Positions 11,381 through 53,405 of a DNA stretch of 64,000 nt are shown piece after piece. Each line of letters opens with the position of its first letter. Positions within the stretch are counted from its first letter, which is position 1. The translations under genes and the position numbers were made by a program. The notes beneath the pieces were generated by a model. That model had not been told where the DNA came from, did no database searches, and saw only the letters and a list, made by a program, of their open reading frames with translations. This DNA comes from Natronorubrum sediminis (GTDB lineage Archaea; Halobacteriota; Halobacteria; Halobacteriales; Natrialbaceae), in NCBI RefSeq assembly GCF_900108095.1, contig NZ_FNWL01000002.1:974748-1038747 (forward strand), written 5' to 3'.

Positions 11381-11528
11381 AAGTCCACCCTCCCCGATTT
11401 GAACAGGTGAGAGACGGTCTCGCTCACTTCGTTCGCGAGCGTGCGACTCTCATGTTCAAAATCGGGTCGTGATTTCCGTTTCGTGATTCCAGCGACTCGC
11501 TTCGCTCGTCGGTTTGAATCACGAAAAG
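11381..11528 (-). repeat. tRNA-derived hairpin module downstream of tRNA-Tyr
   Basis: Just 3' of tRNA-Tyr (which reads leftward) lies a 148-bp module. Its far end (11381-11404) repeats the last 24 bases of the tRNA locus (11526-11549) with one mismatch. That copy is one arm of an inverted repeat: 11393-11413 pairs with 11447-11466, containing CCCGATTTGAAC and its near-complement plus TGAGAG/CTCTCA. The loop is CTCACTTCGTTCGCGAGCG-like. A second perfect inverted repeat, TCGTGATTC (11481-11489) and GAATCACGA (11516-11524), directly abuts the tRNA. A related module follows tRNA-Ser at 53161-53324. It could be an attachment-site remnant, a miniature mobile element, or a processing or termination structure. 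Confidence 0.75.
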
Positions 11529-11602
11529 TCCGCCCTCCCCGATTTGAACGGGGGGCAAGTCGATCTACAGTCGACTGCTCTACCAGTCTGAGCTAAGGGC
11601 GG
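11529..11602 (-). tRNA. tRNA-Tyr (anticodon GTA)
   Basis: A 74-nt cloverleaf on the minus strand. The acceptor stem pairs CCGCCCT with AGGGCGG, followed by discriminator A. The anticodon stem GTCGA/TCGAC encloses the loop CTGTAGA with anticodon GTA. The T arm contains GTTCAAATC. The initial C-C pairing partner is typical of archaeal tRNA-Tyr. There is no intron and no encoded CCA. It is divergent from cdrL, with about 130 bp between them that must hold both promoters. Confidence 0.97.
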
Positions 11603-53065: not shown

Positions 53066-53324
53066 TGTGCTCGATTTCGTTCACTCCGTGAACGATGACT
53101 TCTCGAATCCAAATCCCGTCGTCGGGTAGCCGTTGCTCACGAGTTTGTTCGCGACAGAAGACGCCAGGACAGGGATTTGAACGACGCGAAGACGTTCCGG
53201 GCCTGCGGCCTCACTCCGTTCCGGGGCTGCGACTTCTCTCATTCAAATCCCGCTTTGTTGCGTTTCGCAATTTCGAATAACTCGCGTCGCGATGCGCCGC
53301 TCGTTGGTAGTGAAATCACGAAAA
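53066..53324 (-). repeat. tRNA-derived hairpin module downstream of tRNA-Ser, plus a second remnant
   Basis: Downstream (leftward) of tRNA-Ser, 53161-53182 repeats the last 22 bases of the tRNA locus (53324-53345) exactly. This copy is one arm of an inverted repeat: GGGATTTGAA at 53172-53181 pairs with TTCAAATCCC at 53242-53251, with GAAG/CTTC inside. The loop has CTCACTCCGTTC, and the part touching the tRNA contains GCTCGTTGG and TCACGAAAA. The same order and words occur after tRNA-Tyr (11381-11528), although the tRNAs differ. A further decayed copy of the loop and right arm (TCACTCCGT, GACTTCTC, CAAATCCCG) lies at 53081-53118, so the module seems to have arrived or duplicated more than once here. 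Confidence 0.75.
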
Positions 53325-53405
53325 CGCCAGGACAGGGATTTGAACCCTGAATCCCAAAGGGAACACGCTTTCCAGGCGTGCGCCTTACCGTTCGGCCATC
53401 CTGGC
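53325..53405 (-). tRNA. tRNA-Ser (anticodon GGA)
   Basis: An 81-nt class II tRNA on the minus strand. Acceptor GCCAGGA pairs with TCCTGGC; discriminator G. The anticodon stem CACGC/GCGTG encloses CTGGAAA, anticodon GGA. A long variable arm (TTCCCTTTGGGATTC) pairs with itself, as expected for serine tRNA. The T arm has GTTCAAATC. No encoded CCA, no intron. Confidence 0.97.

Follow-up and report, generated by a model that had tools for sequence, protein, structure and literature searches.

The window, i.e. the whole stretch of 64,000 nucleotides that was analyzed, contains two tRNA genes with a hairpin module behind them, tRNA-Ser(GGA) and tRNA-Tyr(GTA) (Table 1). The tail of tRNA-Ser(GGA) recurs 142 nt downstream of the gene, where it forms one arm of a hairpin. 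Open reading frames inside the unit were limited to short spurious ones.

Table 1. Positions of the tRNA genes and of the parts of their hairpin modules in the window.
Feature	Positions	Strand	Basis
tRNA-Ser(GGA)	53325-53405	-	ARAGORN and Rfam
Ser tail, last 21 nt of the tRNA (G53 to base 73), the repeated block	53325-53345	-	repeat comparison
Ser hairpin 1 (hp1), directly after the tRNA 3' end	53263-53323	-	fold of 53258-53324
Ser antitail slot, GCGGGATTTGAA, T-loop/T-stem part of the tail in inverted orientation, 20 nt	53242-53261	-	inverted repeat
Ser core, class B, TGAGAGAAGTCGCAG...AACGTCTTCGCGTC, exchangeable part	53183-53241	-	
Ser tail copy, GTTCAAATCCCTGTCCTGGCG, forming the 3' arm of hairpin 2	53162-53182	-	direct repeat
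Ser decayed second unit: stretch resembling hp1, followed by a remnant of antitail and core (53097-53118); own tail lost	~53075-53161	-	
tRNA-Tyr(GTA), the other module-bearing tRNA of the window	11528-11602	-	
Tyr hairpin 1	11479-11526	-	inverted repeat 11479-11489/11516-11526; fold z=-3.95
Tyr antitail (11454-11473) and class-B core (11405-11453)	11405-11473	-	fold of 11390-11470(-), z=-6.2
Tyr tail copy	11384-11404	-	direct repeat 11381-11407/11526-11552, 93%

The exact 22-nt repeat of the tRNA-Ser tail described in the first-pass annotation was recovered as part of a direct repeat (53157-53182 and 53320-53345) identical at 25 of 26 nt, and the 10-nt inverted repeat claimed there is included in one of 13 nt (53172-53184 and 53239-53251; 92% complementary). 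The further decayed copy was found as well: positions 53097-53118 match 53231-53252 at 19 of 22 nt, with 53081-53089 in addition. Its alignment to the Ser unit (CGGGATTTGGATTCGAGAAGTC) was equalled by one of 2000 dinucleotide shuffles. The proposed likeness of the Ser and Tyr modules was borne out by an alignment score of 32, which was reached by 3 of 2000 dinucleotide shuffles and by 2 of 1774 other segments of the window. Taken alone, this pair shows a significant but modest similarity; the genome-wide family makes the relation certain. The hairpin module is real, and the phenomenon is far larger than first described.

Own-tail copies, defined by at least 16 matches out of 22 at most 400 nt downstream of the tRNA, were present after 22 of 42 tRNA genes in the focal genome, 28 of 43 in a congener and 22 of 44 in a genome of another genus. 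By the same criterion, shuffled sequence gave a background of about 0.2%, and the tails of other tRNAs matched at 7-10% because the T-loop is shared. In a set of 253 tRNA genes that was partly chosen for the presence of hairpins, 180 genes had tail copies (262 in all). The arrays behind these 180 genes consisted of one (114), two (52), three (13) or five units (1), and the unit length was mostly 70-130 nt.

Of 21 haloarchaeal genomes, 20 contained the hairpin pattern GATTYGAAN{25,55}TTCRAATC; the reversed pattern gave 0. A looser pattern with GG before TTC occurred in about 37 of 40 Halobacteria versus 4 of about 157 genomes from elsewhere in the phylum, the latter with one or two matches apiece. 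The strict class-A core pattern was detected in 99 of 145 sampled Halobacteria genomes (control, 0). A search of a named genome collection for the class-A hairpin yielded at least 120 loci, with one exception from haloarchaea or related metagenome bins. Among the matches listed, 119 of 128 class-A hairpins had a same-strand tRNA at most 600 nt upstream, with about 30 isoacceptors represented, and those without a tRNA nearby were mostly at contig edges. The exception among the listed matches, in an Armatimonadetes MAG (L228, 140-185), has no tRNA nearby and is probably due to chance. One scan of viral contigs with one class-A pattern gave 0 matches, and no phage match was obtained. With the Rfam 15 covariance models, the tRNA itself was the only match above cut-off, the hairpin family being absent from this collection. 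The loose hairpin pattern also produced a false positive within a tRNA-Ser gene (GATTCGAAATCTACTGTCC..., G001:C1:1407756-1407797 and relatives). Separately, about 14 weak tRNA matches on one strand were noted within 2.6 kb (G015:C1:2635124-2637763), resembling a tRNA cluster of the virus type.

The borders of the duplicated block were determined from 223 copies. Identity between tRNA and copy stepped up from 0.18 (position -2) over 0.71 (position -1) to 0.99 at G53, stayed at 0.96-1.00 nearly throughout the tail, with 0.90 and 0.95 at its last two positions, and was about 0.57 or lower past base 73. In 93 of 156 units, the 5' arm of hp1 follows the tail at a distance of 0-1 nt. In most units, the 3' arm of hp1 stops 18-22 nt ahead of the T-loop box; the antitail slot is therefore one tail long. 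The copy is kept to base 73, whereas the tRNA specificity of the antitail covers the T-loop and the T-stem strand and not the acceptor strand. A full-length tRNA-specific antitail was rejected, specificity being confined to the T-loop/T-stem part (median rank 0.049). The first-pass statement that the copies take on the ends of their own tRNAs applies to this part of the 5' arm of hairpin 2 and does not extend to the rest of the arm. At positions that differ between tail copy and tRNA, the antitail agrees with the copy (46:10).

Alignment of 39 class-A units gave 96.8% paired cells and 51 doubly changed ones; in 8 pairs, both partners had changed. These values were reached by 0 of 500 shuffles. 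The signal collapsed when the partner was slid by one base, a control that is favourably biased by the drawing of the structure from the same class-A sequences; the doubly changed cells are independent of this bias. As in integron-type sites, the folded hairpins are conserved in structure and variable in sequence, with many core classes. The cores of orthologous units were 95.5% identical over aligned columns versus 93% for the upstream flank, and since these values are close to each other, no strong constraint is claimed.

Covariation of this kind would be expected from a functional RNA in the tRNA 3' trailer. In a read-through transcript, hairpin 2, with an antitail that would otherwise pair with the T-arm, could tune 3' processing, termination or quality control. 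In agreement with this, folding is more stable for the tRNA-sense strand than for the reverse one (-35.9 versus -31.6 kcal/mol as RNA, p about 1e-24), unpaired bases are purine-rich, loops are of the stable CGAAG type, and a U.G beside the T-loop arm is conserved in 36 of 39 class-A units. However, the strand preference could fit sense RNA and single-stranded DNA alike, and the family is not in Rfam. Neither the tail stem (22:57) nor hairpin 1 (14:37) had an excess of sense G.U relative to A.C, the counts being 31:22 in the core, and selection for a sense-strand RNA on the basis of these mixed counts was rejected. Moreover, the acceptor part of the tail is preserved without specific pairing, and about half of the tRNAs are devoid of a module, which is gained or lost between congeners. 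A trailer RNA is regarded as unlikely.

The tail of the tRNA that precedes it was carried by 162 of 172 hairpins; the other 10 were decayed, and none had a foreign tail. Transfer of whole units between tRNAs with the tail included was rejected on these counts. Among the class-A matches listed, the acceptor part was 90.3% identical to that of the own tRNA versus 42.6% for swapped tRNAs. Near-identical cores were found behind the tRNAs for Pro, Asp and Leu in one genome (G253), and cores 98% identical behind those for Phe and Ile in another (G001), each with its own tail. The earlier proposal that the core has moved while the end is adopted from the local tRNA is supported by both observations, with the refinement that the core is exchanged separately from hairpin 1. 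The core found behind different tRNAs is bounded by the T-loop boxes, in the manner of terminal inverted repeats. Core sharing was slightly higher between tRNAs with the same T-loop and nearly independent of T-loop class; the limits of the exchanged stretch therefore lie at or within the T-loop boxes, unless these re-adapt later. General homogenization of cores within a genome was rejected. Cores of the same genome were no closer on average, so transfer is occasional.

Sites without a module, with the flanks joined right at the second tail, were identified at Ile-GAT (empty in G000, filled in G001) and Arg-TCG (empty in G000 and G010, filled in G001). At Ser-GGA, the tRNA is followed directly by an hp1-like stretch in the congeners G002, G007 and G008, an empty site as judged by hp1 similarity; this stretch resembles the one past the second tail in G000. 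At the same locus, only hp1 is present in G009, and the module is accompanied by another tail copy in G001. Empty sites thus show presence and absence from tail to tail, which may reflect gains or losses. The checks proposed in the first-pass annotation, namely an alignment of the modules, a scan of haloarchaeal genomes and searches for compensatory changes and empty sites, were all positive.

Distal tail copies were more diverged than the first one in 34 arrays and less diverged in 8 (p=7e-5). Tandem units of one array were as alike as random units (0.56 versus 0.55-0.56), and array growth by tandem duplication as the main route was rejected on this basis. Some identical tandem units exist (G304, G294). 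In the tRNA-Pro(TGG) and tRNA-Leu(TAA) arrays of G304 (L305 and L306), three near-identical tandem units were observed in each, and local tandem amplification therefore also occurs. The Val-GAC units of G000 and G001 agree at 98% in hp1 plus antitail but have unrelated cores, and the core of G001 is present in G007 behind a different hp1.

Arrays of this kind could arise as a passive by-product of replication at tRNA genes. Template switching at the quasi-palindromic T-loop would produce triplets of tail, antitail and tail, and slippage together with gene conversion would homogenize tails with the tRNA and spread cores, with no dedicated enzyme or function. Haloarchaea are polyploid. The antitail slot of exactly tail length and the start of hp1 at the tail end are what fold-back copying would leave, and the antitail follows the copy where copy and tRNA differ. 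Contraction between tandem antitails accounts for several core changes and can explain part of those at Val-GAC in the G007, G001 and G000 arrays. Core transfer between different tRNAs, however, needs an ectopic event, and exchange between different T-loops leaves a shared edge of about 3-4 nt, which is little for homologous recombination. The near-fixed core motifs across the class, together with the strong covariation, point to selection or a specific process, and the family is restricted to one class. A passive origin is considered somewhat unlikely.

Alternatively, a transposase or Cas1-like integrase might cut the T-loop, duplicate 21 bp and insert a pre-formed piece of hp1, antitail and core, similar to a CRISPR or casposon insertion at the repeat next to the leader. 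Such target-site duplication would be in line with the fixed 21-nt duplication, which is always of local sequence, with the polarity of the arrays and with the exact empty sites, and it would account for core mobility without tail transfer. In CRISPR arrays, older repeats degenerate at the distal end. The layout of repeat, unit and repeat and the degenerate distal repeats are shared with CRISPR and casposon insertions; unlike in CRISPR, the repeat is a tRNA tail, and the units are related hairpins with recurring core classes instead of unique spacers. The antitails are tRNA-specific and common to the units of an array, and therefore the inserted piece is not generic. In addition, hp1 and core are inherited separately, and no candidate enzyme was found. 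Insertion by this route appears very improbable.

Duplication of a tail at the tRNA 3' end is the hallmark of integration, and 7 integrase (tyrosine recombinase) genes are present in the focal genome. A direct repeat of the tRNA 3' end (G53-73) surrounds the insert, as would be the case in attL/attR pairs left by integrated viruses or plasmids with a deleted interior. Against such remnants stand the uniform short length of the units, with no size continuum of deletion remnants, the homologous cores behind about 30 different tRNAs, and the viral-contig scan. Furthermore, real elements are located between tRNA and module. In G000 (C1:239139-245249), two complete copies of tRNA-Ser(TGA) enclose about 6 kb with an integrase (C1:239964); the whole tRNA is duplicated here, and the hairpin module remains behind the distal copy. 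In Haloterrigena salina (L199, NZ_AOIS01000037.1, 61-908), a decayed reading frame, assigned as integrase-like by reading its sequence, and an attR-like tail lie beside an intact module with a tRNA-Val tail. No tRNA was present in the 8 kb examined; the frame and the attR-like tail sit between the expected tRNA-Val and the unit. Integrated elements and modules are therefore separate things. No complete element with hp1 and hairpin 2 at its ends and an integrase was found. In view of the uniform size, the absence of matches in the viral contigs scanned and the real elements between tRNA and module, an origin from ordinary integrating elements was rejected, and it is hardly credible.

Integron attC arrays consist of tandem hairpin sites that are conserved in structure and variable in sequence, and their growth is polarized. 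The units described here may be likened to them as tandem, structure-conserved, sequence-variable and polarized hairpins. No integrase was noticed as a neighbor of the arrays. They differ from attC arrays in being devoid of cassette genes and in having a tail specific to each tRNA, with the T-loop in place of the GTTRRRY site; the duplicated block begins G|TTC, and the T-loop GTTCAAA does not fit GTTRRRY. Archaeal tyrosine recombinases target dyad-symmetric regions of tRNAs including the T-loop (PMC8371274). As in tRNA-integrated elements (PMC8371274), the 3' part of the tRNA is duplicated from the dyad-symmetric T-loop and the tRNA is kept intact; unlike these, the units are about 100 nt long, gene-free, tandem, built of conserved hairpins and present behind about half of the tRNAs examined. 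Small mobile repeats, MITEs and the palindrome-associated elements of Haloquadratum are short, non-coding and palindromic and have no transposase of their own (PMC3119063). All of these properties are shared by the units, which, in contrast, occur almost exclusively behind tRNAs, have 21-nt local tail copies and contain arms that replicate tRNA sequence. A scatter over many unrelated insertion sites, as for MITEs, was not observed among the matches listed, in view of the proximity of class-A hairpins to tRNAs given above. The open literature searched covers integrated elements, small mobile repeats and prophage tRNA duplications (PMC3119063), and no description of the hairpin family was found in it. 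The family looks new, as its anatomy fits none of the known kinds compared; this newness rests on anatomy and not on mechanism.

The best explanation, with a probability of about 0.45, is that the units are non-autonomous recombination cassettes which are anchored to tRNAs and cross over at the T-loop. A cassette would be composed, in order on the tRNA strand, of hairpin 1, antitail, core and G53-73 tail copy. Such units (70-130 nt plus 21 nt) would pile up in tandem with the newest beside the tRNA, i.e. with gains at the tRNA-proximal end. They would be gained or lost tail-to-tail, so that any tail copy joined to the tRNA would still yield a functional tRNA. The core between the inverted T-loop boxes (GATTTGAA...TTCAAATC) would be swapped among arrays, the hairpin arms staying local. 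The T-loop, which is dyad-symmetric and used by tRNA-targeting recombinases, is the most likely crossover site, and a putative enzyme, a tyrosine recombinase of host or virus or a comparable one, may act in trans.

This reading is favored by the acceptor part of the copy, which is kept though not specifically paired; selection on the hairpin alone does not explain it. Also in its favor are the sharp borders of the duplicated block, the absence of foreign tails, the empty sites, the greater divergence of distal copies, the dissimilar tandem units, the separation of hp1 from the core at Val-GAC, the cores common to different tRNAs and the strong covariation. The preservation of the acceptor strand is best explained by the copy having served as, or having been converted from, a functional tRNA end. 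Recombination cassettes are less easily reconciled with the lack of any enzyme tied to the units, of circular or excised forms and of units in the viral contigs (one scan, one class-A pattern). Core swaps within an array could also be deletions between tandem antitails (Val-GAC in G007, G001 and G000), and the agreement of the antitail with the copy is the reverse of what a simple circle model predicts. A more specific version, in which folded hairpins swap cores at the T-loop by a dedicated site-specific recombination of Halobacteria, as a gene-free, integron-like array docking at tRNA genes, is distinctly unlikely.

In the three haloarchaeal genomes examined, roughly every second tRNA gene has such an array behind it. 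If T-loop recombination is their cause, they would represent a new class of tRNA-anchored repeat and a natural record of recombination at tRNA genes. They would then explain some of the tRNA-tail att sites that are called spuriously in haloarchaea, and they would offer a testable route to why recombinases favor tRNA 3' ends. Should the RNA of the trailer instead have a function, the biogenesis of archaeal tRNAs would gain a new layer.
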